NCBI GenBank assembly: GCA_029259655.1
Contig: JAJDET010000064.1
Span: 1 to 60,869 of the forward strand
Length of the DNA: 60,869 nt
Direction of reading: 5' to 3'
Source of the DNA: Planctomycetota bacterium
GTDB taxonomy: Bacteria; Planctomycetota; UBA1135; GCA-002686595
The notes beneath the pieces were generated by a model that had not been told where the DNA came from, ran no database searches, and saw only the letters and a list, made by a program, of their open reading frames with translations. Both the position numbers and the translations under genes were made by a program. Position 1 is the stretch's first letter, and the number at the start of each line of letters is the position of its first letter. Of the stretch, positions 7,566 through 27,941 are shown piece after piece.

Positions 7566-7614
7566 TGGTAGCGGTGGAGGGACTCGAACCCCCGACACGC
7601 GGATTATGATTCCG
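7566..7614. repeat. Displaced tRNA-Met 3' fragment (left attachment site)
   Basis: Forty-nine bases identical to 27865-27913, the CCA end, T arm and 3' part of the anticodon arm of the intact tRNA-Met on the minus strand. The match stops abruptly after the anticodon stem, and no 5' half follows, so this is not a functional tRNA. A displaced 3' tRNA end at one boundary with an intact gene at the other is the expected trace of integrase-mediated insertion into the tRNA 3' region. The flanked region is 20.3 kb. Confidence 0.85.
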
Positions 7615-7716
7615 GGCGAGGGGAAGGGGGGTGTTTCGTCGGAAGGGCATTCGCGCGAACGAGTTGCAGCTGCGCAGAGCCTTGACGGTGACGAGCGTCT
7701 GGGCGTCCTGCTGGGC
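7599..7716 (+). repeat. Composite tRNA-arm repeat, copy A
   Basis: It begins with gcggattatgattccg (7599-7614, exact tRNA-Met anticodon arm, antisense). Ninety-five bases from its start comes the shared 23-bp motif at 7694-7716, containing gtctgggcgtcctgctgg. Copies with the same order and nearly the same spacing lie at 9973-10090, 20014-20131 and 27572-27686. Copy A continues into a conserved 73-codon reading frame. Confidence 0.75.
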
Positions 7717-7827
7717 ATGCTCCGTGCCGAAAAGCCCGAGCTGGCGTTGGTGATCGACAGCTGGGCCGGTCTACCGCCATCGGTGCGCGCCGGGATCGTC
7801 GCGATGGTCCGAGCAACCTCAAGGTAG
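7606..7827 (+). CDS. Short conserved ORF in repeat copy A (possible integrase-tail remnant)
   Basis: 73 codons. The second half (DERLGVLLGMLRAEKPELAL, then WAGLPPSVRAGIVAMVRA) is conserved in the equally long frame at 9980-10201, with about 45 of 73 residues identical by eye. Its start overlaps the tRNA-like core, so the first residues are dictated by the attachment sequence. The ending resembles from memory short C-terminal tails near planctomycete tyrosine recombinases, but no catalytic R-H-R-Y region is present. It may be a real small protein or a preserved fragment of a lost integrase reading frame. Function is not assigned. Confidence 0.4.
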   Translation: MIPGEGKGGVSSEGHSRERVAAAQSLDGDERLGVLLGMLRAEKPELALVIDSWAGLPPSVRAGIVAMVRATSR

Positions 7828-8205
7828 ACAAGATGACCACGCCTTCGCCGAAGGCCGCGATGATCGTCACCCTCGCGACCGACTAGGTGCAATGGTCCTC
7901 ACACTCAACACACACGCGGGGTGGCTGATGCTGAGGGAAGGACGCGAGCTCACAGGAACAAGAAGGACTGGCTCAGACCTCCTTGATCCGTCCCGGGGCA
8001 TTGAGTGACCTGCACCCGAAACCGGTACCAAAGTCTATGTGAGTCCTGGCACGCTGGATCCGGACTCGGGCTCGGCTAGACGCTAGATTCCGGCAGATTC
8101 CAAGGCCACTGCTGAGGCCGTTCCGCCCCGACTTCCCTCCTACGCCCAACGCACGGAACTGACGTCGAGCACCCGCCAACTCAAACACCGACGAAGTAAC
8201 CACCC
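7828..8205. other. Intergenic stretch upstream of the hydrolase lipoprotein
   Basis: 378 bp with lower GC than the core genes. I see no open frame with coding character, tRNA or clear hairpin. It should contain the promoter of the gene at 8206. No strong ribosome-binding site precedes that start. Confidence 0.4.
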
Positions 8206-9879
8206 ATGAAGACGACTCTGGGGATAACCACCATTCTCCTACTCAACCAAGTGCTCGCCGGATGCCTGTCTTGTCCGGAGCCGACGAAATGCGCGGACCA
8301 GACGTTCCTAGACCCTCGTCGATACTCAGTCGCGACGTACGACAACGAGGGGTATCTCTTGAGTTTTCCACTCGAAGAGGCTCGCGCCGACATTGAAGCG
8401 CTAGGTCAGGGTGGAGACGCCGTACCCAACCACATCTACATAGTTGCACACGGTTGGAACTTCACACTCGCAGATTCTCTCAAGAACTACCGGCACTACC
8501 TCGCCCTTATTGACGAAGAGATTGAACCCGGGTTCAGCCCATACTTCGTCTTCATCAACTACCCGTCAACCGCTCGCCCGACCCAGGATCTGGCAGCCTC
8601 CCTACTCCCTCTCGGCCTTGACTGGGTCCTTTGGCCCGCAACCTGGATCATCGACCGAGTTGCCTTCCATCTTCCATCTGCCTGGAACCAGTCCCTCAAG
8701 GCTACACGCATCGCCGTCAGCGACGGCTGCCGGCCGACCCTGCGCGCGGATGACTATGACTCCGCGGTCGCTCGAGGCCAGGGTCGTGCCTTAGTTCCCG
8801 TTTCGATGTTCCTACGTTCACTGAGCAAGGAGTTCGGTGGGTCCGGCGGCGCGCGTATTCACTGTGTCGGTCACAGCTATGGAGGGAAGTTGATCACGCT
8901 CGCCGCGATTGAAGCAATCGTTTGTTCCTTTCAAGACGAAGCTGGAGGGTCCCTCTCCGTCCCTCCGCCTGGCGTTGAGGGTCCGATTGACTCTCTGGTC
9001 GTATTCAACGGCGCGTTCCATCCTTCGGAGTTGACGTATGACGCCAGCGTAGACGACTCCATGGTGAGAGCGGCCCTCGGGACTATATCGCGTAAGGCAG
9101 TTGTCTTCAGCCGGAGAGACTTTGCCACCGGCTTCGCGTTCGACGTGAGTGAGTTCGCGGCAACGCGCAAGGGTCTGGACGGCATCGATTCGGCCCTAGG
9201 AGCGGCCTCGCGTGCTCTGGATGAGCAGAACGGCATCGTACGAGAAGCGGGTAGGCCCGTCGTTGCTCTCAGCGCTTACGTGGTAGGGTCCGGCTTCTCG
9301 GCGATTAGCTGGATATGCGGAGTAGTGACTAAGGTGCTCTCTCTTCCAGCTGATTGGATGCACCACGTGAAATCCAACGACACGTTCGGAGGGGACGGCG
9401 AGGAGGCTCCAGGGTGGGCCATGCCCCTGAATGCTCTGCACTTCTTCCTGCCGGTCGACAAGATCATCAGCGCCGAGTCCGACAAGATGGGTATCCTCCG
9501 TCATACGCGCCCCGCGGTAGGACGGACAGGACTCGCGACGCTGTACAGAGGCCGCGGAGTTCTGATGAACATTCAGGCCAGTTGGATGGCAGGTATGACG
9601 CCTCGCTCCTCAGGGGTGTCAGCCAAGGAGTTCGTCCGGATCGTTGATGAGAGTAGGCCGACGAGTTTCTCGGAATGGGACCCGAACACCTTTTATTCGT
9701 TCGACGCCACGTCCGTCTATGACACGCTCTGCAGCATCGTCGGAGCACACGGTGATATTCGATCGACCGAGTCCGCGGGGAATCGCCTCGGTTGTCGGAA
9801 GATCGACGCCACGATCAGGTTCATCCGCTGGGCCACGACCGAACCCTTGAGCGGCCTTAGCCGGGTCGTCGCACAATAG
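8206..9879 (+). CDS. Lipoprotein alpha/beta-hydrolase
   Basis: 557 residues. The N terminus (MKTTLGITTILLLNQVLAGC) is a lipoprotein signal with lipobox VLAGC. Residues ~80-95 hold IYIVAHGWNF, an oxyanion-hole-like HG motif. GGARIHCVGHSYGGKL around residue 222 is the nucleophile elbow G-H-S-Y-G of esterases and lipases. The C-terminal half is poorly conserved in my reading and may hold the acid and His. It is the only gene between repeat copies A and B, so it forms a one-gene module. Its base composition is lower in GC than the core (a sample at 8461-8520 is 50% GC against 72% at 44461-44520), which suggests acquisition. Substrate is unknown; lipase/esterase-like is the limit of the evidence. 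Confidence 0.8.
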   Translation: MKTTLGITTILLLNQVLAGCLSCPEPTKCADQTFLDPRRYSVATYDNEGYLLSFPLEEARADIEALGQGGDAVPNHIYIVAHGWNFTLADSLKNYRHYLALIDEEIEPGFSPYFVFINYPSTARPTQDLAASLLPLGLDWVLWPATWIIDRVAFHLPSAWNQSLKATRIAVSDGCRPTLRADDYDSAVARGQGRALVPVSMFLRSLSKEFGGSGGARIHCVGHSYGGKLITLAAIEAIVCSFQDEAGGSLSVPPPGVEGPIDSLVVFNGAFHPSELTYDASVDDSMVRAALGTISRKAVVFSRRDFATGFAFDVSEFAATRKGLDGIDSALGAASRALDEQNGIVREAGRPVVALSAYVVGSGFSAISWICGVVTKVLSLPADWMHHVKSNDTFGGDGEEAPGWAMPLNALHFFLPVDKIISAESDKMGILRHTRPAVGRTGLATLYRGRGVLMNIQASWMAGMTPRSSGVSAKEFVRIVDESRPTSFSEWDPNTFYSFDATSVYDTLCSIVGAHGDIRSTESAGNRLGCRKIDATIRFIRWATTEPLSGLSRVVAQ

Positions 9880-9972
9880 CTGCGGTCTTCGACGTTCAAG
9901 CGATCCGGGTGGTAGCGCCACGTCAGGCCGTCGTGTCAGGAGGGCGATAGCGCTCAAGTCCAGCGGCCCGTC

Positions 9973-10090
9973 GCGGATCATGATTCTGGGAGGGGGAGAG
10001 GCAGTCGTTTCGTCGGAAGCGACTTCGCCCGAACAGGTTGAGGTGACGCAGAGCCTCGACGATGACGAGCGTCTGGGCGTCCTGCTGGGC
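9973..10090 (+). repeat. Composite tRNA-arm repeat, copy B
   Basis: gcggatcatgattctg (9973-9988) differs from the tRNA-Met arm core by two bases. The shared motif follows exactly 95 bases after the core start, at 10068-10090. Similarity to copy A continues to about 10198, so the full repeat is roughly 225 bp. Together with copy A it brackets the lipoprotein hydrolase gene. Confidence 0.7.
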
Positions 10091-10201
10091 GTACTTCGCG
10101 ATGAGGCCCCCGATCTGGCGCTGATCGTCGAACCTTGGGACCGTCTTCCTCTCTCTGTACGCGTCGGAATTGTCGCGATGGTCCGATCGACCTACGGCTG
10201 A
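9980..10201 (+). CDS. Short conserved ORF in repeat copy B
   Basis: 73 codons, the same length and position relative to the repeat as 7606-7827. It contains DERLGVLLGVLRDEAPDLAL and LPLSVRVGIVAMVRS. The divergence from copy A keeps frame and length and many changes are conservative, which argues that the frame was under selection at some time. No promoter or ribosome site is evident and the start lies in the tRNA-like core. It is probably a remnant of a gene that ended at the attachment site. Its function is unknown. Confidence 0.4.
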   Translation: MILGGGEAVVSSEATSPEQVEVTQSLDDDERLGVLLGVLRDEAPDLALIVEPWDRLPLSVRVGIVAMVRSTYG

Positions 10202-10445
10202 CTTGGCATGAGAGGATCGATCCCGTCCGCCTTTGCTCTGGCCCACGCTAACCATGCGCGCCTTCGTCACTCACGGTCCCCTCCTCTTGAGCCACCCGTT
10301 CGAACTCATCCACGAACCGCCTGACCTCGCCAGCGCGCCTCCTGCCGCATTCGATCCGGGAGACCATGGCCACGCTCGTAAAGACGGGCCGAGGACCCAC
10401 AAACTAGCGCGGCTGGGGATCTCCTGCCCGAAAGAGGTGACATCG

Positions 10446-13400
10446 TCACGGCACGCTGAGCCAGGCGATGACCCCCGGCGCGTTCGCCGGATGGCTCGTC
10501 TGGGTATTGGGCGGCATGTAGGTTGGATCGACGAGCAGGGCCACGATCGTGTTCCAGGGGTGCGTGAAGTTCGACCAAGACCCATCCAGACAGATGGAGG
10601 TGAACTTGTTGTTCGTGAAGGGTTGCACGTACCACTTGTTCGTGCGGGCCCAGAGCACGACTCGGATGACGCCGTTGTCGATGTTGTCGGCGATGCCCGA
10701 GATCCGGGACGGGAGAGCCGAGGTGATCTGAATCGTCGGAAGCTCGGCAGGGTCGCCGATGAAGCCGGTTCCGAGACACTTGTTCGGAAACTCGTCCCAG
10801 GCGAGCACCCCGGAGTCCAAGGAAGGGTGTTGCTGCGTGGGCAAAACCGGTACGTAGGAGCCGTCCACCAGGAGGGCGAGTATGCGGTTCCAGGGTGCGG
10901 TGGTGTTCGACCAGCTCCCGTCGCTGCAGATCGCCGTGAAGGGATCCAGCTGGAACGGCTGCGCGTACCACTTGTCCGTGAGTGCGTAGAGGACGACGCC
11001 CGCCTGGCTCGCGTCGACGTTGTCGACTCGGCCCTGCACGGTCGGGTCACCCGGAGTCAGGTCGAGGATCTCGATCTCCGGAGGCAACTGGAGATCACCG
11101 AGCTTGCGGACGTCCGCGCAGCCGCCCGGAAACTCGTCCCACGCGAGAACACCCGGCGTCGTGGACGGGTGTGGGACGAGCCTGGGAGCAGGCGTGTACG
11201 TGTCGTCCACGAGAATGGCCACGATACGGTCCCACGGGTTCGTAGACGTGGCCCAAGATCCGTCGCTGCAGACGTCCGTGAACGGACTCTGCGTCGTGGG
11301 CTGCACGAACCAGTGGTTCGTCTTCGCGTAGACGACGACCTTCTGCGCGCTGGCGTCTAGGTTGACGGCCGTCCCGCGTACGATCGAGCTGCCCGGCTGC
11401 AGGCCGACGATCGACACTTCGGGAGCCTGCATCGGGTCCCCCACGATGCCGCCGGGGCACGAGGGGCCGGCGATGGGTGCGTAGTTGAAGTCTCGCACGA
11501 CAACTTCGTCCGCCTTGGCCGGATCGTTCCCGCCGATCAGCCACAGGTTGAACCTCATCCGCTCGCCACCGGCGGGCGGAACGTCTGGACCCACGTAGGT
11601 CCAGGAGTCGATCGACGTGAACGGGTCCGGGGCCGGCGCCTCTCCACGCCAGCTCTCGAACGTGATCTGGTTGGCCGCCCACACGAACCGGTGCGTGGTC
11701 ACCTGGTCGGCGCCGATAGTGAACGTCCGGAGATTCCCAGGTATGAAGTACGGTTGAACGACGAACTGGGCATTGTCGGGATTGGCAAGCCCGAGCGAGA
11801 ACTCGATGTCTATCTCACGCGTCGCCGACTCGTAGACGAAACCCGCGAACACGGCTTGCGGATCCAACGTGTCCAGGCGCCCGATCACGGTAAAGCGGTA
11901 CTCGCCGTACCCCAACGAGGCGGGTAGCAACACCTCCGAGGCGTACCATTTCCCCTGCTCGGCGCGTGTGCTCAGGTGCAGGCCGAACTCGTCGACCCAG
12001 ACGCTCCCGGGGTCGTCGGAGAAGTAGTTGGGCCCGGGACCCACGAGGCTCCCGGTCTTGACCACCCAGTTATGGCCGCTGAAAAGCACGGTGCGCCGCG
12101 GCGGGAACTCCGTCCACGCGCGAACTCCGGGCTCGTCGGACGGGTGTGTATCCAGGATGGCCGCGGGGACGAACGTCTCGTCCACGAGCAACGCCGCCAA
12201 CCGGTCCCAGGGATGCGTGGTCGTCGTCCACGAGCCGGCGTTGTCGAGCGACGTGAAAGGCGCTTGAACGGTGGGCTGGACGTACCACCGGTCGGTCATG
12301 GCGTAAAGGACGACCCGGGCCTGTCCCGGACCGTAGTTCTTCGCCACACCCGAGACCGTCGAATCCCCGAGCTCCAGGTCCTCGAAGACGATCTCCGCTG
12401 AGAGCCCAGTGGGAAAGGACCCCGCATCGGTCGGGCTCGTGCCGTGCTCCACCTCGACGCCATCGCTGAACCCGTCGGCGTCGGTGTCGAAGACCATGAG
12501 ATCGGAACCAGCGACGACTTCGCCGCAGTTCGAGAGGCCGTCGGCGTCGGGATCTAGGTCCCCGTCGGGAACGACGCCCGTCACGCGCCGGAAGGGATCC
12601 AACCCGAGCGCGACCTCCAGCGTATCGGGCAAGCAGTCGGCGTCCGTGTCGCCCGCGCGATCGATGACGCCGAAGGTCCACTGGTGTGGGAACACGAGCG
12701 GATTCCCGGCCAGGTCCTGAACGAGGCCGTCGATCCTCGCGCGGTAACGGCCGGGAGTCAGCGGGGCGCGGAACCGCATCGACGCCACGAGGACGTCCTC
12801 GTCGAACTCGATCGTCCCCGTGATCGGCGTGGAGTCGTCCGCCGTCTCGAAGAGCCCGTCGGGGCCGCCCCCCACGAGGAAAAACCCGCCGTCGAGGAGG
12901 TCGTCGACCACGACGGCTTCGCTGAGCTCAGCGGTGACGAGCGACAGGTTGGACACGTAGGTCGAGTCGGCCGGGCTCACGGCAACGACCTGCGGGAGCG
13001 TGAGGTCACTCGGCAGGGAGCGCACCGGGCTCTCGAACACGTTGGTGTCCAGATCGGCGAACACGGCCCACGCGCTCGCCGCGAGAGATACTCGCTCCGG
13101 AATGCACTGGAAGGGAGTCTGCAAGCACTGCTGCCGCACCGGCAGCGTCTCGGACTCCTCAAGCGTGCTGCCGACGAGCCCCCGACCATCCCCGAAGGGG
13201 TCGGAAGCCTGCGCCCAGGCCAGCTCCTCGAGCAGGTCCCACATCGAGTCCTGGTACTTGGCGTCGCCGTAGATTTCCCCCACCAGGCTCATGGCCACGA
13301 CCGCCTGCGCCGTGAACTCCCATGCGATCCCCTCGGTCTGAGGATCGGGCGGACCCGACCGCGGGACCAGCCCCAACCCGGCATGCATCTCGCCGTTCAG

Positions 13401-15398
13401 CTCGATCTCGGAGCAAAACGCCGACATGACGAAGTCCATGACCGCCCTCCAGTCAATCGCATTGCGGTACGGGTCGTGGGGTGCGAGCGACAGCACGGCG
13501 AAGGTGTTGCTGTCGAGGAAGTCACAGTCGTTGAGGAAGTCGGCTCCGATCTGAGGCCCTGCCGGACACAACCCGGGACCCGCCGCCGGTCCGTCCGGCC
13601 CGTCGGGCAGGGTCCCCGCGCGGAAACGACCCGAATTGGAGTCGAACATGCGCAGCACGAAGTCGCCCGCTTCCGTTGCTGCATCTCGCCACCTGCCGGC
13701 CTCGCCCCCCCTGCCCAGGGATTCTTCGACCTCCGCGAGGGCGCGCATCGCCGCGAAGACGTCGGCGTTGTTTTCGGTCGACTTCGACCGGACGAGCAAC
13801 TGCTCGCCCTGTTCTTGAGAGAAGGCGTAGCCGAGGAAATACCCGCCGTAGCCGGCGACCGCCCGGTCGCGGAGGTTCTCGACGATCCAGGTCGCGATCT
13901 CGCGCGCGGCATCCAGGTAGGCCACGTCCCCGAGGGCGTCATAGGCGTCGAGCAGAGCCAGCTGCGCGAACGCGTTCGCGCCCCCCGTGGCGCCCTCCAG
14001 CACGAGGCAGTACCCGGTCGGCCCGCAGGGAAGCCCGCCGCTGTAGCCCGCCAGCCGGATCTCTCCGCGCTTGCCGTCGCCGAGCAGCTGGTCGTTCCTG
14101 AGGGGCAGCTCCCCGCTGCTGTATCCGTCATGGAGCCCGCGCGCCCCCGACGGGCTCGGGGGGATTCCGTACGGCCCGCTGACGTCGTTCTCGAGCGCGT
14201 AGACGAAGGTGTCGGCGAGCCGGCGCGCGCTCGTGAGGTCCGCCGCAGCGCCCCTCCGCAGGAGAGCAATCAGGACCAGAGCCGAGTCGTAGGTCGTCGC
14301 CAGATTGCGCAGACCTTGGTCCGGGCCGACCCCCGCCGGATCCGCGGAGGGAATCACTCCTACGGTCGCGAAGCTGTTGGGAAAGCCAATCGCATTCGCG
14401 TTGGAGGCCGGCACGGGCTCGAAACGGATGTTGTCCAGAAGGACCGTTCCGGCTCCCGGGCCCTGGTCCGCGGCCATGGACACGCTGAAGAGATTGTGAA
14501 CGTCGTCGCGCGGGGCCGATCCGAAGTCCAGCTGATTCAGCTCGAGCGAGATCTCCTGGAACGTCGAGCTTTGCGGGAGGTTGAGGTAGGTCGGCTTTCC
14601 GGCCCCGACTCCGATCCCCACGGAGACGCCGCCCGGAGTCGGCGTGCGAATCTCGAAGACGACGCGCTCGGCCCCGTCGAGGTCGTAGCCGAACCCCGAT
14701 GGACTCGACGCGTAGCCCTCGGGCTCCTCGAAGTTCACGCCGGCGAACTCGCCGGGAGCGAGAGGAGCGAACGTGATGCGCAGGGCGGTTCCGCGATCCG
14801 AATCACTCGCGTTCGCGGACGACGAGCACCCGAGCGGCGCGAGCGGGTCATCGATGCAAGCCGCGTCCAAGGAGATCTTCGAGGTGATTCCGTACCACCC
14901 CGAGGGGACTCCGCGGTTCGACCCGGCATCGGCGTTGACGTAGACGTCGAAGGCCGCGCGAACGCGATCGACTCGCTCCGACAAGAGCGAGAGCGAGGGC
15001 CCGGCAACGGGATTGGTACCCCGGACCTGGACCACGACCGCATCGGTGCACTGCGCCCCGAAGGTGTCCTGCGCCCGGAACTCGAACTCGAGAGCTCGAG
15101 GTTCCCCTACGTTGGGGGCGCGGAACGAGGCGACACCCGCATTCGAGGACAGAGAGACGGGAGTGCCCGACTCCTGACTCCACTCGGCGAGCGGGACGGC
15201 GCCCGTGTCCACGGCCGTTCCGTCCAGGAGCACGTCCGTGGATTCGTCGACGACCTGGCCCGGCCCCGCCAGACAGACGGGCGCCAGGTTGAGCGCCGCC
15301 TCTCCCAGATTCGGTTCTCGGTGACAGGCGCCGACGTACAGCGCGCACGAGATCACAACCGTCGTCGCGACGACGAAGACCCGCAATCGACTAATCAT
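10446..15398 (-). CDS. Giant multidomain lipoprotein with (alpha/alpha)-barrel and lectin/GH16-like domains
   Basis: 1650 residues from ATG 15398, chosen because it opens the signal MISRLRVFVVATTVVISCALYVGAC (lipobox VGAC). Domains in order: Ig/PKD-like (~30-130); a jelly-roll carbohydrate-binding-like module (~140-340, GTVLLDNIRFEP); an alpha-helical barrel region (~365-780) with STENNADVFAAMRAL and EGIAWEFTAQAVVAMSL, as in (alpha/alpha)6 glycan-active enzymes; a Big_5-like Ig domain (~800-900); thrombospondin-type-3 Ca-binding motifs (DTDADCLPD, DPDADGLSN, DTDADGFSD, ~910-990); then four ~100-residue repeats with an inserted domain carrying EIDIEFSLG near residue 1195, a GH16-like motif. 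It is divergent from the operon at 15552, whose third gene shares the binding-plus-barrel layout. It is probably a surface glycan-binding or glycan-cleaving protein; the activity is inferred. Confidence 0.8.
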   Translation of the reverse strand: MISRLRVFVVATTVVISCALYVGACHREPNLGEAALNLAPVCLAGPGQVVDESTDVLLDGTAVDTGAVPLAEWSQESGTPVSLSSNAGVASFRAPNVGEPRALEFEFRAQDTFGAQCTDAVVVQVRGTNPVAGPSLSLLSERVDRVRAAFDVYVNADAGSNRGVPSGWYGITSKISLDAACIDDPLAPLGCSSSANASDSDRGTALRITFAPLAPGEFAGVNFEEPEGYASSPSGFGYDLDGAERVVFEIRTPTPGGVSVGIGVGAGKPTYLNLPQSSTFQEISLELNQLDFGSAPRDDVHNLFSVSMAADQGPGAGTVLLDNIRFEPVPASNANAIGFPNSFATVGVIPSADPAGVGPDQGLRNLATTYDSALVLIALLRRGAAADLTSARRLADTFVYALENDVSGPYGIPPSPSGARGLHDGYSSGELPLRNDQLLGDGKRGEIRLAGYSGGLPCGPTGYCLVLEGATGGANAFAQLALLDAYDALGDVAYLDAAREIATWIVENLRDRAVAGYGGYFLGYAFSQEQGEQLLVRSKSTENNADVFAAMRALAEVEESLGRGGEAGRWRDAATEAGDFVLRMFDSNSGRFRAGTLPDGPDGPAAGPGLCPAGPQIGADFLNDCDFLDSNTFAVLSLAPHDPYRNAIDWRAVMDFVMSAFCSEIELNGEMHAGLGLVPRSGPPDPQTEGIAWEFTAQAVVAMSLVGEIYGDAKYQDSMWDLLEELAWAQASDPFGDGRGLVGSTLEESETLPVRQQCLQTPFQCIPERVSLAASAWAVFADLDTNVFESPVRSLPSDLTLPQVVAVSPADSTYVSNLSLVTAELSEAVVVDDLLDGGFFLVGGGPDGLFETADDSTPITGTIEFDEDVLVASMRFRAPLTPGRYRARIDGLVQDLAGNPLVFPHQWTFGVIDRAGDTDADCLPDTLEVALGLDPFRRVTGVVPDGDLDPDADGLSNCGEVVAGSDLMVFDTDADGFSDGVEVEHGTSPTDAGSFPTGLSAEIVFEDLELGDSTVSGVAKNYGPGQARVVLYAMTDRWYVQPTVQAPFTSLDNAGSWTTTTHPWDRLAALLVDETFVPAAILDTHPSDEPGVRAWTEFPPRRTVLFSGHNWVVKTGSLVGPGPNYFSDDPGSVWVDEFGLHLSTRAEQGKWYASEVLLPASLGYGEYRFTVIGRLDTLDPQAVFAGFVYESATREIDIEFSLGLANPDNAQFVVQPYFIPGNLRTFTIGADQVTTHRFVWAANQITFESWRGEAPAPDPFTSIDSWTYVGPDVPPAGGERMRFNLWLIGGNDPAKADEVVVRDFNYAPIAGPSCPGGIVGDPMQAPEVSIVGLQPGSSIVRGTAVNLDASAQKVVVYAKTNHWFVQPTTQSPFTDVCSDGSWATSTNPWDRIVAILVDDTYTPAPRLVPHPSTTPGVLAWDEFPGGCADVRKLGDLQLPPEIEILDLTPGDPTVQGRVDNVDASQAGVVLYALTDKWYAQPFQLDPFTAICSDGSWSNTTAPWNRILALLVDGSYVPVLPTQQHPSLDSGVLAWDEFPNKCLGTGFIGDPAELPTIQITSALPSRISGIADNIDNGVIRVVLWARTNKWYVQPFTNNKFTSICLDGSWSNFTHPWNTIVALLVDPTYMPPNTQTSHPANAPGVIAWLSVP

Positions 15399-15551
15399 CC
15401 TCCGCTCTCCTTCGATGTCGGGAGGACCGGCGGCACGGCACTCCCTCGGTAGCGCGGCCGTGGGCACATCTCACTCGATGCGGCGAACCCCGATCGACAC
15501 CGCTCACCAGGTCCACTACGATAGCACCGTAGCGCCCGGAGAGGGGAGGCT
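15399..15551. promoter_or_regulatory. Divergent promoter region of the glycan module
   Basis: 153 bp between two divergent starts, the giant lipoprotein (minus) and the outer-membrane protein (plus). It must hold both promoters. Ribosome-binding-like sequences sit at each end (gagaggggaggct just before 15552; ggagagcgg read on the minus strand before 15398). No palindromic operator stands out. Shared control of the two transcription units is inferred from the arrangement. Confidence 0.4.
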
Positions 15552-19884: not shown

Positions 19885-20013
19885 ATGGAGCTGGTGTGCC
19901 TCGATCGATGCGTTGAAATCGTCGGCGTATCCAGGCGGGCGCGACGGCTAGTCTAGGACGATCTACCACTACTCGCCCGCGTCGCGGTCGAGGAAGAGGC
20001 CGAGCCTTCCCCA

Positions 20014-20131
20014 GCGGACATGGGTTCCGCTGCGGGTGCCGTGCCCCCGGTCGTCTCAAGTCCGGTTGGGGAAGGATGGTATGCCTGATCGATCTCTCGG
20101 TGCTTCGCAGCGTCTGGGTGCCCTGCTGGGC
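20014..20131 (+). repeat. Composite tRNA-arm repeat, copy C
   Basis: This is the recognisable content of the 396-bp gene-free stretch 19885-20280. gcggacatgggttccg (20014-20029) is a degenerate tRNA-Met arm core and continues gctgcgggt, as copy D does (gctg also continues the tRNA itself). The shared motif follows 95 bases after the core start, at 20109-20131. After it comes gtcaccgcccccaacccc, similar to the sequence left of the intact tRNA (27781 on). No coding sequence is seen. The copy separates the glycan module from the MACPF-like module. Confidence 0.65.
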
Positions 20132-20280
20132 GTCACCGCCCCCAACCCCGTTCGATTGCACGAGGCGTGCATTACAAGGCCACGATCGCGCCGCTCATGC
20201 GGCTAGCACAACAGTGAGGCGGTCCACCGCGGGATCGCGGTGGACCGCCAGACATTCCAGCGGCGGGCGCGAACTACCCG

Positions 20281-22101
20281 CTAGAATTCCCAGTGCCCCA
20301 TGCCGATGCGCTGCAGGTGATCGATCAGCCTGACCCGGAGCACCGCAGAACATGCGCTCAGGCCCACGCTTCCCTCGATCTGGAGGTCCCGCAGCCCGGC
20401 GCTCGGGCCGCTCGGCACGAGATCGTCGTACGGAACGTCCAGGTTCTTGACCCAGTATTGCGGGGGTGCCGTTGTGTTGGGCGCGTTGTACTGCGCTTCA
20501 TACGACCACGGATAGCCGCTGCAGTTCTGGTCCTCGAAGATCACGAGCATGTCCCCGACTACCTGAACAGGGTCGACGTCAAAGAGGGCGAGGTTTCGGA
20601 CATCCAGGATGAACCCAGTCTCGTTCGTACCGTTCAGGCCGGGGAAGTTCGTCATGGTCACGTCCACCTCGACCGGAGGAAGTTGCTGAACGTGGTCCCG
20701 GATCTGGTCAAGCAGGAGATCGAGATCCAGTTGAGCCCTCTGAAGATCCAGAACTTCAGCGATGAGGTCGGAGCTGGGTGCCAGACCACTGACGAAGTCT
20801 TGGGCGACGCCCCACACGTCATTGATCTCCGCGAAGACGGCGAGGCGCTGAGTCGCGAGCTTGTTCGGAGCCGGATAATCCGGGAACCGCAAGCCCAGGA
20901 ACGTCTGCAGGCCCACCGATCGGAACCAAGCGTCAGAGGCACGCACGGCCCTCATCGCGGCGTGAGCCTCGCGCGCTGCAGCAGCGACTTGAAAGGACTC
21001 CAGCGGAGGTACGGATACGGAGGGAACGCCAGGGAAGGCAGACATCGGGATGGCGATCACGCCCACTCCCTCGTAGTTCGCGACCATCAGCTGGGTCAAC
21101 GCTTCGATGAACTGCCTCTTCTCGGCCGGATGATCGATGGACTCCGGGTTCGTCAGGTGCGAGTACAGGTGATCGACGCTGACCCCATTCGCTTTGAGAT
21201 CGAGATCGTAGAAAGAGTTCGACGCACGCTCTTCGACAAGGTCCGCGAAGCTAGCTGACGCCGCCACCGCTCCATACTCGCCCTTGAGCGCGGTGAAGCT
21301 CTGCGCCTGTGATGTTGACGCAGACTGCTGAAGGCTCACTTTCATGGTCAAGTTGGAGCGCATCTTCCTACCCACAGCAACGAAACGGCCGAACTCCTGC
21401 TTCCAAAGAGCCTCCTTGGCAGGACCGTCTGGCATCAGGAGGATCCCAAGTGCCTGCGAGCTGAATTGAAGGCTGGGCCCGAAGAAGTCGATGATCTCGT
21501 CGCCGAAGTCCATTGTCCATCGGAGCTCGAAACTGTTCGAAACCGTGACCTGACTGTTCGTGTTGGCGCTGGCCTCCTCGGCTGAGAACTTGAGCAGATC
21601 CATCGCTCCCTCGATCGTGAACCGTGACTCATTCGTAGAGAAGGTCGTTGACTCGGAGAGGCGATCATGAATCTCGAGCCCGGAGTCATAGGTACTCAGG
21701 TCGGCTGGGCGAAGAGACGCGTAGCCGAGGATTCCTCTGGAGACCGGTGCACCCGCGATCGGGTCCCAATCGAAAGTACGGAGGGCATACACGCCCGGAG
21801 TCTGAACCGACGTCACCAGTTCCTCGTCGGGGAGGAAGAGGCACGTACTCGAGCCGGCGAGCGCCGTTGACGCGATTGCGGTGAACGAGGCCTCGTCGAA
21901 CGGTTCCTCGGCAGGGAGACTCCTCCGGCCGCTCCCCGGTTGGGGAGCAACCGCGGGCACCGAGGGATAGTCAGCTCGAAGCGGGGTTTGCGCGTACTTC
22001 GAAGCACTGGACTGCGCAGAGGTCGAGCTCGTCTGGAGCAGGGTGGCGAAAAGGAGCAGGGAGATACGAAGGGGACCTTGCGAGAAGTTGGGCAGTTTCA
22101 T
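20281..22101 (-). CDS. Secreted MACPF-like protein, paralogue 1
   Basis: 606 residues; the start at 22101 precedes signal peptide MKLPNFSQGPLRISLLLFATLLQ...SAQ. The central part has the order seen in membrane-attack-complex/perforin domains: a Ser/Thr/Asn-rich amphipathic stretch (STTFSTNESRFTIEGAMDLLKFSAEEA), a helix ending in KQEFGRFVAVGRK near residue 236 in the place of the MACPF Y-G-T-H-F/Y signature, another Ser-rich stretch (TMKVSLQQSASTSQAQSF), then LKGEYG and KANGVSV. The canonical His and Gly-Gly are not kept, so the call is structural guesswork. The C-terminal domain (NFPGLNGTNETGF, IFEDQNCSGYPW, LIDHLQRIG) is clearly shared with the gene at 22253. It is probably extracellular. Confidence 0.6.
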   Translation of the reverse strand: MKLPNFSQGPLRISLLLFATLLQTSSTSAQSSASKYAQTPLRADYPSVPAVAPQPGSGRRSLPAEEPFDEASFTAIASTALAGSSTCLFLPDEELVTSVQTPGVYALRTFDWDPIAGAPVSRGILGYASLRPADLSTYDSGLEIHDRLSESTTFSTNESRFTIEGAMDLLKFSAEEASANTNSQVTVSNSFELRWTMDFGDEIIDFFGPSLQFSSQALGILLMPDGPAKEALWKQEFGRFVAVGRKMRSNLTMKVSLQQSASTSQAQSFTALKGEYGAVAASASFADLVEERASNSFYDLDLKANGVSVDHLYSHLTNPESIDHPAEKRQFIEALTQLMVANYEGVGVIAIPMSAFPGVPSVSVPPLESFQVAAAAREAHAAMRAVRASDAWFRSVGLQTFLGLRFPDYPAPNKLATQRLAVFAEINDVWGVAQDFVSGLAPSSDLIAEVLDLQRAQLDLDLLLDQIRDHVQQLPPVEVDVTMTNFPGLNGTNETGFILDVRNLALFDVDPVQVVGDMLVIFEDQNCSGYPWSYEAQYNAPNTTAPPQYWVKNLDVPYDDLVPSGPSAGLRDLQIEGSVGLSACSAVLRVRLIDHLQRIGMGHWEF

Positions 22102-22252
22102 GACTCGTGTCCGTGGGGTTGGTTGTTCTTGATTGACGTGGCCCACTCGTGGAAGGCGGGACCGTGACTCTGGGAAGAGCAGACGAGGGGAGTACCGGTG
22201 CAATGGAGGCTGGGCATCGGCTGAGTTGAGGCGGTCCTGAGGACCGTCGCGG

Positions 22253-23914
22253 CTAGAAGGGAACGCCGATCTGACCGGCGTGTCCCGGCAGATGGTCCTT
22301 CAGAGCAACACGCTCTTCGATGGCACATCCGTCGAGCCCGCACTCGAATCGGAACACGATGTCGAGAAGGCCCTCCGCGCCGGGGGCTGCGGCCGGCGCG
22401 ATGGAGTCGATACTCAGGCGTCGAATCCAACCCGAGGCGACCGTTGCCGGAGAGTTGTTCGTGGGCGGATGGTAGAAAGGGAGACCCGAGCAGTTCGTGT
22501 CCTCGTAGACGGTCAGGTGCTCAGCGATCTGTCGTTCGATTGCTTCGACGGTCCCATCCACGAAGAAACCGACATTGGTCGCAACCACCTCGAACCCCGT
22601 CCAGTTAGTGCCTTCGACGCCTTGGAAGTTCTCGGTCACCACCGACAGGTTCATGTCCGGAATGGACGTCTGCACGTAGATATGGATCGCCTGTCTGACG
22701 CTGTCGAGCGCTACGTTTGCATTCGTCACGGCGAGAGTGGCCTGCTGCAGCTTGGCCTCCTTCGCGGTTGATCCGGTGTCTTTCAGATACTCGTCTGCAC
22801 TCAGCCAGACGTCGTCCATAGCCAGAACCAGCGCATTCCGTGCGTCTTCGAGTTGGTTCCACAGAGAGTCTCCTCCCGGTGCTGTGAATTGCTGGGCTAG
22901 GAATGCGCGGTAGCTGTAGGGCTCTTCGTACGCTGAGGCGCGAAGAAGCGTTCCCACGGCGCTACGAACCTGGTTCGCTGCATCGCGAATGACGAAGTAG
23001 TAGCCCGAAGGGGGCGAGACCTTCGTCGTGACCCCGTCCAGTTCGCCGGCGGGAACCAGAACGAGACCATGCCGGTTTCCGGAGGTGTCCATGGCAGATG
23101 CAATCTGACCGAGGAGCAGTCCCTGGTCGTAGTCATCGACGGAGGAAGGGAAGTTGATTTGGCTGATGTCCACCCCTACGCCCTGAAACGAGAAGCTGAG
23201 TGACTTCTCCGAGAGCGCCTCGGAGAGCAACGAGCCGATGGTCGCCGTGGCGTCTGTCGATGCGAAGATGCTGCTGTAACTGCCGTAGAGGTCGGCGAAG
23301 CTGCTCTGGGTGGAGTAGCTGGCTTCTGAGATCAGAGCAACGTCGAGAATCACGGATGCCATCGACTTGTACGCGACGGCTACGTATTCCCCGAACATCT
23401 CTCTCCAGAGCTGAGCCTGGAGATCGGAGTCCATGAGGGCACGCAGAGTGTCCGCCTCGAGCGTGAAGGGAGCGGTCGGCGTGAAGTAGTTGATGTACTG
23501 GTTTCCGTAGTCCTCGGTCCACGCGAGAGAGATTGACTTCGAGTACGAGCTCTGGCCGCTCTCGGAGCTTGTTGCCAGCAATGCGGCCAACTTGAGGAAG
23601 TCGACATCCGCGGTGAGGCTCAGCTGGGTACTGCTGGCGTGGTAGCTCGACGTCTCCAGGGTCTTCTCGTGGAAGTCGATGTGGGTTGTCCCATTCGAGT
23701 TGACCGGGCTCGGAGGCAGTGCCGCGAAGACCGGCTTCATCTTGACGAAGCTGTTCAGGATGGGGTCGTAGTGGAATCCCCAGCCGATGAACTGGGGGCT
23801 CACGTTGGGGAGAAAGAGCTCCGTCGATTCCTCGGCTAACGCGGGCTGGAGGGTCTGACAGAGGATCGCCGTGGTCAGGAACCAGGCGAGGCCCGAGCTG
23901 GTCGTTGTGCGCAT
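22253..23914 (-). CDS. Secreted MACPF-like protein, paralogue 2
   Basis: 553 residues with signal peptide MRTTTSSGLAWFLTTAILCQ...ALA. It is homologous to the downstream gene at the C terminus (NFQGVEGTNWTGF, VYEDTNCSGLPF, LKDHLPGHAGQIG) and centrally: MFGEYVAVAYKS near residue 173 matches EFGRFVAVGRK. On both sides lie long Ser/Thr/Tyr-rich amphipathic stretches (TSSYHASSTQLSL, SEASYSTQSSFADLYG), where MACPF proteins have their membrane-inserting hairpins. The two genes are 151 bp apart on the same strand and probably form one unit, upstream gene first. A two-component pore is one possible reading. The divergent sigma factor starts 253 bp away. Confidence 0.6.
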   Translation of the reverse strand: MRTTTSSGLAWFLTTAILCQTLQPALAEESTELFLPNVSPQFIGWGFHYDPILNSFVKMKPVFAALPPSPVNSNGTTHIDFHEKTLETSSYHASSTQLSLTADVDFLKLAALLATSSESGQSSYSKSISLAWTEDYGNQYINYFTPTAPFTLEADTLRALMDSDLQAQLWREMFGEYVAVAYKSMASVILDVALISEASYSTQSSFADLYGSYSSIFASTDATATIGSLLSEALSEKSLSFSFQGVGVDISQINFPSSVDDYDQGLLLGQIASAMDTSGNRHGLVLVPAGELDGVTTKVSPPSGYYFVIRDAANQVRSAVGTLLRASAYEEPYSYRAFLAQQFTAPGGDSLWNQLEDARNALVLAMDDVWLSADEYLKDTGSTAKEAKLQQATLAVTNANVALDSVRQAIHIYVQTSIPDMNLSVVTENFQGVEGTNWTGFEVVATNVGFFVDGTVEAIERQIAEHLTVYEDTNCSGLPFYHPPTNNSPATVASGWIRRLSIDSIAPAAAPGAEGLLDIVFRFECGLDGCAIEERVALKDHLPGHAGQIGVPF

Positions 23915-24167
23915 GACTTCCGTCCGGATCTGCGGCCAGGGCCGCGGGGTTAGGTTCGTTCAGGAACCGCGAGCCGGTCTCGCGGTCGTTTCCTCAGGAG
24001 GCACGGCGCAGACGTCGCTACCTGGGGAGGGCAGAATCCGGGGTTCCGACTACAAGCTCGTCCACGGTCGGACATATCTCCCCTCTTCCCAGTGGCTTGC
24101 ATCCACCACGAATGGTGTCCGGGGCGGCATGAGGGCCGGAGGACCTGCACGCTCCTCCTCCGCTACC

Positions 24168-24758
24168 ATGGCCCTCGTGGAGAGCCAGCCCAGGCTGGGA
24201 ACGGACGCGCTCGCAGCGTCCGTCTCAGGAGACCTCGTTGCTCAGGAGCACCTGATCGGCCTCATCTACGAGGACCTCCGGGCGCTAGCGGCCAAGCACC
24301 TGCGCGGCGAGCGCGTGGACCACACTCTCCAGCCGACGGCCCTCGCTCACGAGGCGTTACTGCGCCTGATCGACATCGACCAGATCGACTGGAAGGAGAA
24401 GTCCCACTTCTTCGCGATGGCCGCCACCAGCCTGCGCCGGGTGCTCGTCGATCACGCAAGGGCGAAGGCCGCAAAAAAGCGCGGCGGAGACGCGAAGAGG
24501 GAGAGATTGACAGGGGCCGATACCTCCTTCTGGGAAGACCAGTTGCAGGTCCTGGCTCTCGACATGGCCCTCCATGACCTCGAGAAGACGAACCCTCGAC
24601 AAGTACGGGTCGTCGAATTGCGTTTCTTCTCTGGGTTGAGCGTGGAGGAAACCGCAGCAGCGCTGGACATCAGCAAGGACACGGTCAAAGCCGACTGGCG
24701 CTTCGCTCGAGCATGGCTGAATCACGAGCTCACGAAGGGTGAGTCCGGAGATGACTGA
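24168..24758 (+). CDS. ECF-like RNA polymerase sigma factor (PF07638/TIGR02999 type)
   Basis: 196 residues from ATG 24168. The frame is open further upstream but that part has no sigma-like sequence, and 196 is the usual family length. Region 2 reads LIGLIYEDLRALAAKHLRGERVDHTLQPTALAHEALLRLI with the family hallmark HTLQPTALAHEA. Region 4 reads RVVELRFFSGLSVEETAAALDISKDTVKADWRFARAWL, the -35-recognising helix-turn-helix. It overlaps the kinase start by 8 bp, so the two are co-translated; kinase-controlled ECF sigma factors of this kind are frequent in planctomycetes. It is divergent from the MACPF-like pair and may drive it; that is inferred from position. Confidence 0.9.
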   Translation: MALVESQPRLGTDALAASVSGDLVAQEHLIGLIYEDLRALAAKHLRGERVDHTLQPTALAHEALLRLIDIDQIDWKEKSHFFAMAATSLRRVLVDHARAKAAKKRGGDAKRERLTGADTSFWEDQLQVLALDMALHDLEKTNPRQVRVVELRFFSGLSVEETAAALDISKDTVKADWRFARAWLNHELTKGESGDD

Positions 24759-27534
24759 CGGCAGCGAGGAACTCCTGGCACTCTTTGGACAGGCACACGG
24801 GCAATCCACGGAGGAGAAGGCGGAGTTCATTCGAGGAGTCCTTGCGAGGGATCCGTCCCTCGGTGAACAACTCGCGGCACTTCTTGCCCAGGACGATCGC
24901 CCTGGCCCTGTACCTGTAGATCCAACTGCAACTCCCCTACCGAAGCCGGGATCCGACGCGCCTCGTCTCAAACTCGAGCCAGGCATGCGCCTGGGTGAGT
25001 TCGTCCTCGTGACGGCAATCGGGAGAGGCGGTCAGGCCGTGGTCTGGGAGGCCGAACAGCCCGAGTTGGGCCGTCGCGTGGCCCTCAAGCTCCTGCACCC
25101 CGGCCGCATCGACGAACGCTCGCTGGAGCGCTTCCGCCGAGAGGCGGTCGCCGGAGCCCGGCTCACGCATCCGAACCTGGTGACGGTCCTGGACTGGGGT
25201 GAGGACGACGGCTTCTCGTGGCTCGCGCAGGAACTCGTCCCCGGTGGCAGGACCCTGCGGCACGTGATCGAGAACGCTCGTGTTCAGCTCGCAACGCCCC
25301 CTGACTGGTACCGCCATGTCGCCACCATCACGCGCGACGTAGCGGACGCCCTCCAAGCCATCCACGCGGCGGGAATCCTCCACCGCGACGTCAAGCCTCA
25401 GAACATCCTCCAGGCTCCCGACGGCACGCCCAAGCTCACCGACTTTGGCATCGCGCATCTCCAGAATGAACCGACCCTTTCCGGATCCGGAGAGATGATG
25501 CCGGGCACATGCCTGTACATGAGCCCCGAACAAGTTCGCGCGCGCAGGACCGAGATCGACGCACGCACGGACATCTTCTCGCTTGGGGTTGTGCTCTACG
25601 AACTCCTGACGCTCCAAAGGCCGTTCGAGGGGGATACCGCGCCCCAGATCTGCATGCGGATCCTGAACCACGATCCTCAGGATCCCCGAAAGCTGCGTTC
25701 TCAAGTGCCGCGGGACCTTTCCGTGATCTGCTGCAAGGCCCTCGAGAAAGATCGCGGTCGCCGCTACACGACGATGTCGGAGCTTTCCGACGACTTGAAG
25801 CGCTGGCTCACGCACGAGCCGATCCACGCAACCCCGCCGACGCGGCTCGACCGAGTGTCGAAGTGGTGCCGACGCAACCCCACAAAGAGCGTAGCAGCCG
25901 GACTTGCAAGTGCAGCGCTGGCGGTGATCTGGGTGCTAATGGCGGCCTACCTGGGGGAGGTAGCGGCGTCCTCGCGACGAGCGGAGGAAGTTCTGAGGCT
26001 GTCAGCCTTGCAGGAGCTGGAGGACTTGCTTGTTGAAGCGAGGACCTTGTGGCCGGCACATCCGGCGTTGATCCCCGGCTTCGAGGCGTGGATCGAGCGG
26101 TCTTGCGCCCTTGTGGAGGACCTCCCGTACTACGAGGCGAAACGAAGTGAGCTACGCGCCCTGGCGCGGCCGCGTACGCAGAAGGAGCATCAGCAGGAAC
26201 GGGAGACCCATCCTGACTACGGTCAGTGGCAAGAGGTGGTGGCCTCGTTGAGCGAGAGGACGGTGGCACTAGCACACGCCGGCAACGCGGAGGAGGAGCG
26301 CGCGATCGAGCATGAGGTTGCGCGACTGAAGGCCGAACGAATCGAGCTCGACCTGCGCCTGAATGAGCGCCGCGAGTGGCACTTCACTGAACAGGAGGGG
26401 GATGCGCGTTGGCGGGAGAAGCAACTCTCGAAGTTGATTGCTGGCCTTCGCGTCTTTGAATCGGACCTACTGGCCGAGGGCGAAGTCACCGAGGAGCACG
26501 GGTGGAGCGTCACGCGACGGCTTGAGTTCGCTCGAACGATCAGCAGCGCCGAAGGTAACGAGAGTCGGGCGCGCTGGTCGGAGGCGATCGCCACGGTTTC
26601 TTCGTCGACAGCGTATGGCGATCTCGAACTCTCGCCGCAAGTAGGTCTCTGGCCGATCGGTGAGGACCCTCGATCGGGGCTCATGGAATTCGGTCACCTG
26701 CCTACGGGGGAGCCTCCAGGGCGGGACGAAGATGGCCGGCTAGTATTGACCCCGGAAACGGGGCTGGTACTCGTGCTGATCCCCGGCGGGACTTTTCGAA
26801 TGGGGGCACAGGCTTCGAATCCCGCCGCCCCCAACTACGACCCGAGGGCACGGAGCAGCGAGGGTCCCGTGCACGAAGTAAGCCTCTCGCCGTACTTCTT
26901 GTCGAAGTATGAGATGACGCAGGAGCAGTGGACCCGTATCTGCGGCGTGAATCCCAGCCGCTTCTCGGCAACTGAATACGATCCGCTTTTCTCTCTCGGC
27001 GACAATGAGCACTCCCCTCTGTTACCCGTGGAAGAGGTCAACTGGTACGAGTGCCAAGAAGTGCTTCGGCGGGTTGCTCTTGCGTTTCCATCCGAGGCAC
27101 AGTGGGAGTTTGCGGCCGCGGGAGCAGACCGAACTCACTGGCCGTTCCCTCCAGACGAAGTTGTTGAGAAGGTCGCCAACTTCGCCGATGCGCGGACGTC
27201 CAAGTTCTTCCCGGCCCTCACATGTGACCCGTGGGACGACGGATGGGCGGCAACGGCGCCGGTGGGCAGCCTTCTTCCCAATGGGCTCGGCTTGCATGAC
27301 ATGTTCGGAAACGTGTTCGAGTGGTGCCTCGACGGATACGATCCGGGTTTCTACTCTCGCTTTCCCGCCGTCGATCCTGTCGGTCCCAACTCTGCCCAGG
27401 ACCGGATCCGACGTGGCGGAGCTTGGGACTACTCCAGGGACTTCGCACAGGTCTTTCATCGAAATCACGGGAACCCGGCCGACGCCGACCTCGATATGGG
27501 CCTTCGTCCCGCTCGTGCGGTCGCTGCGGACTGA
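24751..27534 (+). CDS. Transmembrane Ser/Thr kinase with C-terminal SUMF1-like domain
   Basis: 927 residues from ATG 24751 (a GTG 12 bp upstream is an alternative; either overlaps the sigma gene). Kinase domain ~80-350: Gly-rich loop IGRGGQAVVWEAEQ, Lys113, catalytic HRDVKPQN at 211, DFG at 231, APE-like MSPEQ. A transmembrane helix lies at ~380-402, then a charged, partly coiled-coil region to ~630. The SUMF1/FGE-type domain runs from ~670 (VLIPGGTFRMG) through GNVFEWC (Cys859) to DMGLRPARAV. The active-site Cys pair of true FGEs, expected after the R-G-G block, is missing (RRGGAWDYSRDFAQ), so it is probably a sensing or binding domain outside the membrane. Likely regulates the co-encoded sigma factor. 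Confidence 0.9.
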   Translation: MTDGSEELLALFGQAHGQSTEEKAEFIRGVLARDPSLGEQLAALLAQDDRPGPVPVDPTATPLPKPGSDAPRLKLEPGMRLGEFVLVTAIGRGGQAVVWEAEQPELGRRVALKLLHPGRIDERSLERFRREAVAGARLTHPNLVTVLDWGEDDGFSWLAQELVPGGRTLRHVIENARVQLATPPDWYRHVATITRDVADALQAIHAAGILHRDVKPQNILQAPDGTPKLTDFGIAHLQNEPTLSGSGEMMPGTCLYMSPEQVRARRTEIDARTDIFSLGVVLYELLTLQRPFEGDTAPQICMRILNHDPQDPRKLRSQVPRDLSVICCKALEKDRGRRYTTMSELSDDLKRWLTHEPIHATPPTRLDRVSKWCRRNPTKSVAAGLASAALAVIWVLMAAYLGEVAASSRRAEEVLRLSALQELEDLLVEARTLWPAHPALIPGFEAWIERSCALVEDLPYYEAKRSELRALARPRTQKEHQQERETHPDYGQWQEVVASLSERTVALAHAGNAEEERAIEHEVARLKAERIELDLRLNERREWHFTEQEGDARWREKQLSKLIAGLRVFESDLLAEGEVTEEHGWSVTRRLEFARTISSAEGNESRARWSEAIATVSSSTAYGDLELSPQVGLWPIGEDPRSGLMEFGHLPTGEPPGRDEDGRLVLTPETGLVLVLIPGGTFRMGAQASNPAAPNYDPRARSSEGPVHEVSLSPYFLSKYEMTQEQWTRICGVNPSRFSATEYDPLFSLGDNEHSPLLPVEEVNWYECQEVLRRVALAFPSEAQWEFAAAGADRTHWPFPPDEVVEKVANFADARTSKFFPALTCDPWDDGWAATAPVGSLLPNGLGLHDMFGNVFEWCLDGYDPGFYSRFPAVDPVGPNSAQDRIRRGGAWDYSRDFAQVFHRNHGNPADADLDMGLRPARAVAAD

Positions 27535-27571
27535 GGACCTGCATCGCCGCCGCCTCCCCTCCCTGCGCCCA

Positions 27572-27686
27572 GCGGACTATGGTTCCGCTGCGGGTACATC
27601 CACGCGGACGACCCAAGCTCCCTCGAGACAACATGATCTGTCCGTAGTCACTTGCGGCCACAGAGCGTCTGGGCGCCTTGCTGGGC
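27572..27686 (+). repeat. Composite tRNA-arm repeat, copy D, within the gene-free stretch before the tRNA
   Basis: gcggactatggttccg (27572-27587) differs from the tRNA-Met arm by two bases. The shared motif follows at 27664-27686, 92 bases after the core start. Copy D is most like copy C. A further partial motif (tctctgcgtcctgctgggc, 27762-27780) follows, then cgtccaacccaccgaacccc up to the intact tRNA. This accounts for the 330-bp gap 27535-27864; no gene is seen there. Confidence 0.65.
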
Positions 27687-27864
27687 TGACGTGCGAGACC
27701 TCCCGATCTCGACTCTCCTGCTGAGTCGGAGGAGTGCGAGCGAGCGCCGGCAGCGGAAATGTCTCTGCGTCCTGCTGGGCGTCCAACCCACCGAACCCCG
27801 CACTTCTATGCCCGGAGGCGACGCCCTCGTCCCACCTCGCGCTACTGAGAACGCGCCCCGACCC

Positions 27865-27913
27865 TGGTAGCGGTGGAGGGACTCGAACCCCCGACACGCG
27901 GATTATGATTCCG
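27865..27913. repeat. Right attachment repeat within tRNA-Met
   Basis: Forty-nine bases identical to 7566-7614. The identity covers the 3' end of the tRNA up to and including the anticodon stem and ends within it. The tRNA 3' end points into the flanked region, so insertion would have rebuilt an intact tRNA here and left the old 3' end at 7566. Confidence 0.85.
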
Positions 27914-27941
27914 CTGCTCTAACCAGCTGAGCTACACCGCC
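27865..27941 (-). tRNA. tRNA-Met (anticodon CAU)
   Basis: The minus strand gives a complete 77-nt cloverleaf with encoded CCA. Acceptor GGCGGTG pairs with CACCGCT (G1 against T72 is a wobble). The D arm is GCTC/GAGC, the anticodon stem GCGGA/TCCGC holds loop ATCATAA with CAU at its centre, the variable loop has 5 nt, and the T arm is GGGGG-TTCGAGT-CCCTC. The sequence is typical of elongator tRNA-Met, though a CAU anticodon alone does not exclude the Ile2 type. Its 3' 49 nt recur at 7566-7614, so this gene marks the right boundary of an inserted region. Confidence 0.95.

Follow-up and report, generated by a model that had tools for sequence, protein, structure and literature searches.

We analysed a window of 60,869 nucleotides (the whole stretch, contig JAJDET010000064.1 of assembly GCA_029259655.1, from a Planctomycetota bacterium), in which a 20.3 kb island, lying between a fragment of transfer RNA (tRNA)-Met and the intact gene, carries four repeats that are likely remnants of integrase genes. 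The intact tRNA-Met(CAT) at 27865–27941 on the minus strand, already reported in an earlier note on this DNA and found here by both ARAGORN and Rfam, forms the right end of the island. It is the sole tRNA detected by ARAGORN in the window and the sole Rfam match there at gathering score, and on these grounds a known RNA element was rejected as the identity of the repeats. The 3′ part of this gene (27865–27913) recurs at 7566–7614 (no strand assigned) with 49 of 49 bases identical, and the repeat pair extends to 58 nt at 95% identity. Judged by its sequence, the segment at 7566–7614 appears to be a displaced 3′ fragment of tRNA-Met, marking the left end of the island (left attachment site, attL). 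As in a tRNA island, one end thus holds an intact tRNA and the other an identical copy of its 3′ part with the same orientation, and the guanine plus cytosine (GC) content in between is below that of the flanks.

The four composite repeats described in the earlier note (7599–7716, 9973–10090, 20014–20131 and 27572–27686) are all present. Each was said to combine a 16-bp core resembling tRNA-Met with a 23-bp motif lying 95, 95, 95 and 92 bases downstream; the core is indeed there, but in copy 1 it belongs to the longer, 49-bp identical stretch of the tRNA 3′ part. The motif, which had been read as belonging to an attachment site or to the border of a cassette, turned out to be coding sequence of a displaced integrase tail. 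Core and motif belong to a single reading frame, which explains why the spacings differ by a multiple of three, and an arm-type or cassette site was accordingly dropped as the principal interpretation of the motif and kept as a rival.

The motif encodes DERLGVLLG within a tail of about 70 residues, which follows in frame after the reversed tRNA-Met 3′ fragment. Copies 1 and 2 are open frames on the plus strand: the core with complete tail 1 occupies 7600–7827 and continues the frame of the reversed tRNA, in which copy 1 begins (GGSGGGTRTPDTRIMIP; the open frame spans 7528–7827), and a degenerate core with complete tail 2 occupies 9974–10201. Both pass through DERLGVLLG and terminate, each before a stop, in LALVIDSWAGLPPSVRAGIVAMVRATSR and LALIVEPWDRLPLSVRVGIVAMVRSTYG, respectively. 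Tail 1 scores E 1.5e-32 with the 7-row tail profile described below, a profile that itself includes copy 1. The two tails are 64% identical in protein and match over 222 nt at 75% in nucleotide sequence, the differences (59 of 225 bases) falling 12, 18 and 29 times on the first, second and third positions of 75 codons. The eight codons of the motif (7693–7716 and 10067–10090) are all identical between copies 1 and 2; outside the motif, 25 of the 40 codons with identical translation, the stop included, are the same. The full conservation of the motif codons possibly reflects a constraint on the DNA.

Copies 3 and 4, also on the plus strand, are damaged. A degenerate core with an altered tail 3 (20012–20206) keeps QRLGALLG in the frame of the core and is without the usual C-terminal part, which is unrecognisable, while a degenerate core with a broken tail 4 (27567–27689) keeps ERLGALLG and carries internal stops; the two have a 28-nt repeat in common at 89% identity. 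In the whole genome (6.41 Mb), a 22-mer of the motif was found with at most one mismatch at these four sites only, the fifth match having three mismatches; the reversed-pattern control gave 2 and 2 matches at up to three mismatches (22-mer), and 0 and 0 at up to one (20-mer). A weaker fifth copy in the window (27757–27780, plus strand, 79% match) is a possible extra tail remnant consisting of the motif alone. It lies in a position similar to that of an exact 20-base motif in relative G015 (L006:1501-1520), which stands 81 bases from an intact tRNA-Met and has no visible tRNA fragment next to it.

Tails and integrases in related genomes

With a single tail as query, 7 of 81 genomes of the family were matched, the own genome included; within the class, a 7-row tail profile matched 24 of 154 genomes, and in a phylum sample a 24-row profile matched 102 of 392 (E 1e-4, at most 15 candidates scored per genome). 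Two tail loci located in a named collection both lie in Planctomycetota assemblies, one of them from a contig of G046. The open frames that bear the tail are mostly about 40–300 residues long. Neither Pfam nor NCBIfam gave a match for the tail at E 1. An AlphaFold model of the tail with 24 rows consists of three helices (30–44, 46–52 and 60–74; predicted local distance difference test, pLDDT, 88–97 for the block), for which the PDB held no significant match (best of 5, E 5.5). When bodies and tails were aligned jointly, the tails were misplaced, and that alignment was set aside. The tail gave 186 pattern matches in viral contigs, none confirmed; nothing was found for the tail or the left end of the island in phage records, or for an unsplit integrase–tail frame in plasmids.

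Reversed fragments of tRNA or transfer-messenger RNA (tmRNA) adjoin the tails in 20 of 27 loci of related genomes: an antisense tRNA T-loop lies just upstream, on the strand of the tail, in these 20/27 loci of the class (two rows from the window left out; background 0.017 per 360 nt) and in 11/25 loci of the phylum (30 fetched, minus one from the window and four already counted; background 0.020 per 360 nt). The peptides encoded by the reversed tRNA vary by locus, the tRNA-Met version being DTRIMIP in G056, G033, G057 and G023.

At the opposite end of these islands, a cognate intact tRNA or tmRNA was found downstream of the tail, together with a 33–64-base fragment at the tail, in 7 of 17 stretches from the class. 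In near-complete genomes, the cognate gene was found within 20–40 kb for 10 of 17 tails, islands at tRNA-Ser, -Lys and -Ala among them, one of these matches being only 14 bases long. Among 18 islands, the window and 17 from relatives, 14 have an integrase frame that runs into the intact tRNA, and 13 of these 14 integrases do so in the tail-predicted frame. Four bodies went into the integrase profile, and three of these came from scored islands; with these three islands excluded, the frame agrees in 10 of 11, a probability of about 1e-4 at one third each. In the three bodies scanned, the Phage_integrase domain lies undivided within the part that reads into the tRNA, and across the 14 bodies the positions R, H-x-x-R and Y, which we take to be the catalytic residues, are invariant or nearly so. 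The body of the G041 integrase matches 192 phage records, all below 60% identity and each over less than 80% of the query, a result uninformative on the tail.

Both parts are joined in relative G437, where a single frame of 390 residues comprises an integrase body, an antisense tRNA-Ser core and a tail, the N-terminal part being absent. A second body, with 71% identity to the first, lies about 6.5 kb further on and extends through the intact tRNA-Ser(tga). To judge from these sequences, an older body has probably been joined to a newer tail, as stacking predicts; no second tail was found on the G437 contig, so the outer left end of the pair was not seen. Another integrase-like frame directly follows the unsplit integrase (G437:C270:28866-29945, profile E 3.5e-9). 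The unsplit frame folded without an alignment gave a poor model (mean pLDDT 39.4).

A second tandem was found at tRNA-Met itself in relative G005, where about 71 kb beside the gene (G005:C1:3626300-3698100) contain two tRNA-Met fragments and an integrase. The outer fragment carries a decayed tail; the inner one, about 18 kb on, has a frame interrupted by a stop in its tRNA portion and carries a tail of different sequence, and the integrase ends in GGSGGRTRTADPRIMIPLL, followed by a stop, within the intact tRNA-Met. This stretch is likely a two-step stack. It is the only one of 29 tRNA-Met loci in the family at which an integrase reads into the tRNA, three of the 29 having less than 200 bases of flank and being unable to show one. 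The own genome contains a 15.6 kb island at tRNA-His (G000:C374:13259-28966, loci L052-L054) with the same split: the integrase ends inside tRNA-His, and the other end has a short, different tail. Of the seven integrase matches in the own genome, none lies on the window contig, and the five that were translated have no ending in the tRNA-Met antisense peptide. A trans-acting integrase for tRNA-Met, which the earlier note had suggested looking for, was not found in the own genome among these five; in relatives, the G005 enzyme reads into tRNA-Met.

Because integrases in the tail-predicted frame stand at the cognate tRNA and an unsplit frame exists in G437, the attachment site of the circular element (attP) is likely located within the integrase gene, and the C-terminus of the enzyme is likely swapped on integration. 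We propose, with a probability of roughly 85%, that the four repeats are left-end scars of successive integrations into tRNA-Met by elements predicted to carry attP within the gene of their own integrase. When circular, such an element would encode an integrase made up of a catalytic body, a stretch encoded by the reversed 3′ half of the tRNA and then the conserved tail; G437 shows the joined frame, and the circle itself we infer. Recombination at the core would leave the body reading into the restored tRNA and the tail stranded beside the displaced tRNA fragment, and both of these post-integration ends are present in relatives. If another element then entered the same tRNA, the body of the first would be fused to the tail of the second, as in G437. 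The window has no body left and its inner cores are decayed; its island is therefore likely a relic, or a passenger lacking an integrase, and the window as a whole likely a decayed stack without an integrase. The idea of repeated insertion at a single tRNA, put forward in the earlier note, is supported in outline by the 49-bp fragment, the tails at tRNA fragments in relatives and the tandems of G437 and G005; the cassette array offered alongside it is unsupported.

Cargo and flanks of the island

The repeats separate three cargo modules. Module 1 (8206–9879, plus strand) is one gene for a protein of 557 residues without a Pfam match. Module 2 (10446–19884, no strand assigned) encodes a surface-type protein of 1673 residues (Big_5, TSP3 and PKD domains) and three genes without a Pfam match, and module 3 (20281–27534, no strand assigned) two such genes, an extracytoplasmic function (ECF) sigma factor and a kinase with an FGE-sulfatase domain. 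The GC content is 0.598 (7830–9960), 0.662 (10210–20000) and 0.624 (20140–27560) in the three modules, and 0.69 and 0.695 in the flanks. A defence-gene scan of nine island proteins matched only the kinase protein (24739–27534), adjoining the ECF sigma factor, to PD-T4-6 defence kinase models, a match probably due to the kinase domain alone. To the right of the tRNA, DNA similarity was found beside tRNA-Met in 20 of 29 loci of relatives, and one frame showed protein similarity in 17 of the 29.

Alternative explanations

Several observations weigh against the proposal of successive integrations. No PF00589 match was found on the window contig at E 0.001, which leaves no integrase body, and 4 of the 18 islands are without an integrase (G491_a, G043, G002 and the window). 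The inner cores of copies 2–4 have no recognisable tRNA T-arm (p 0.08, 0.08 and 0.95) and are therefore decayed junctions at best. The best-preserved copy is the outermost, and those next to the tRNA are broken, a gradient of decay opposite to that of simple stacking. In relatives, 10 of the 17 class stretches showed no cognate tRNA, many of them ending at a contig edge, and in near-complete genomes no cognate tRNA fragment was found within 20–40 kb for 7 of the 17 tails (five in G482, one in G385 and one in G424). The exception to the frame agreement is G035, a remnant of 158 residues with a stop before the tail. Opposite-strand T-loops near tails (4/27 class and 5/25 phylum loci, among them G033:C497 and G040:C23) are unexplained, and perhaps mark integrases that enter the tRNA from its opposite end. 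Database searches for a full-length protein of integrase plus tail gave 578 candidates, none at E 0.01, and in a second search 153, none at E 10, which is a weak test for a short tail. Finally, an unoccupied tRNA-Met locus, sought at the suggestion of the earlier note, did not appear: the left flank of the window was found beside tRNA-Met in none of the 29 relative loci, examined with up to 1.5 kb of flank.

The gradient of decay would be accounted for by a single recent entry of a 20.3 kb composite at tRNA-Met, whose inner repeats would be relics of older insertions elsewhere. This differs from successive integrations at the present site only in the time and place at which the stack was built. 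An outer pair identical at 49 of 49 bases around degenerate inner cores, and an intact outermost tail with broken tails next to the tRNA, are as such an entry predicts; however, the identity of the outer pair could also come from gene conversion, neither the motif nor the composite was found elsewhere in the own genome, and no relative with the same composite was found. We consider a composite entry a serious contender, with somewhat less than an even chance of being correct.

Another explanation is that the tails were kept as DNA, with the motif serving as an arm-type site for binding and the modules being satellites that lack an integrase and are moved in trans by integrases of other elements, the cassette-like view of the earlier note. 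The full identity of the motif codons in copies 1 and 2, set against the lower identity elsewhere in the tail, the retention of the motif in copies 3 and 4 while the remaining tail decays, and the missing integrase in four islands are in agreement with this. Most related tails, however, show no conservation of the motif at either the DNA or the protein level despite the same location, and the frame agreement of 13 of 14 integrases fits a part of a protein, making this explanation improbable. Local duplication of a single scar, in place of separate insertions, would explain the 222 nt common to copies 1 and 2 and the 28 nt common to copies 3 and 4, but the differences between tails 1 and 2 fall mostly on third positions, suggesting divergence as coding sequence, and the modules differ in GC content; we regard such a duplication as quite unlikely. 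It is very improbable that the tail forms a small protein of its own or was fused to the reversed tRNA by chance: in most cases it occurs separately from an integrase body, and the full-length protein was not found in a large protein database, but the frame agreement at cognate tRNAs and the unsplit frame uniting body and tail both tie the tail to the integrase.

Known systems and biological meaning

The closest parallel to the proposed integrations is the Myxococcus phage Mx8. According to PMC4701971, attP lies within the coding sequence of the integrase IntP, integration exchanges a C-terminus of 112 residues for one of 13, and the exchanged form is less active (see also PMC6070905); the latter, a review, states that the exchange alters specificity. 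The likeness is the target core inside the integrase reading frame, seen here in relatives (13 of 14 integrase-bearing islands and one unsplit frame), the window having the tail half only. By eye, the C-terminal part of Mx8 Int also contains a segment, ARSTGLEPV, resembling a reversed-tRNA peptide. In contrast, the tail is not detectably homologous to Mx8 Int (best piece 15 residues, 1.8 bits, not C-terminal), the integrase profile built here gives no match to it, and the planctomycete elements use many tRNAs and tmRNA across a phylum, with a conserved tail. Comparison at the sequence level thus suggests a system that works like Mx8 without being a member by descent. By analogy with Mx8, the tail most likely favours integration, and its loss would stabilise the inserted element.

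Attachment sites inside an integrase gene are already known for Mx8 and SSV, as noted in the Islander paper (PMC4383910). In the SSV-type (suicidal) archaeal integrases, integration splits the gene, which holds the site, and the pieces persist as markers (PMC8371274); there the catalytic domain is severed from the N-terminal part, whereas here the body stays intact and the tail is exchanged. Streptococcal integrative and conjugative elements in rumA have attR within the integrase gene, with another C-terminus in the excised form (PMC4701971), but use a serine recombinase and a protein-gene target. The Dehalococcoides ssrA islands stand in tandem at one tmRNA gene with target-gene repeats as borders, 15 of them without an integration module; accretion has been proposed for them, and in a related fosmid the repeat lies within the integrase gene (PMC3146451). 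They differ in having a serine recombinase and many clean direct repeats. The window has four cores with tails, copies 2–4 being without a T-arm, and its inner borders appear to be remnants of tyrosine-integrase tails; the relatives add the tandems of G437 and G005. For an integron cassette array, an integron integrase would be expected, and the window contig holds no integrase match; for attC sites, the search was limited to the Rfam scan, which matched the tRNA alone. The open-licence literature searched contained no report of the arrangement or the tail in Planctomycetota. What seems new here is the spread across a phylum, the use of many tRNAs, the conserved exchanged tail and relic stacks such as that in the window.

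Taken together, the tRNA-targeting tyrosine integrases of Planctomycetota may possess a conserved three-helix tail only when the element is circular, and integration, by swapping this tail for a tRNA-encoded end, would act as a one-way switch; a second element stacking at the same tRNA would re-arm the older integrase, so that arrays could be mobilised or reshuffled. We advance this combined view tentatively and hold it to be doubtful as a whole. The tail profile, found in 102 of the 392 sampled genomes of the phylum, serves as a marker for the likely left ends of tRNA islands, including those without an integrase, and the tail as a directionality switch and the re-arming of older elements by stacking become testable questions. 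If the proposal is true, an insertion that swaps the tail of its own enzyme would be a self-altering design, one that is also shown by relatives across the phylum.

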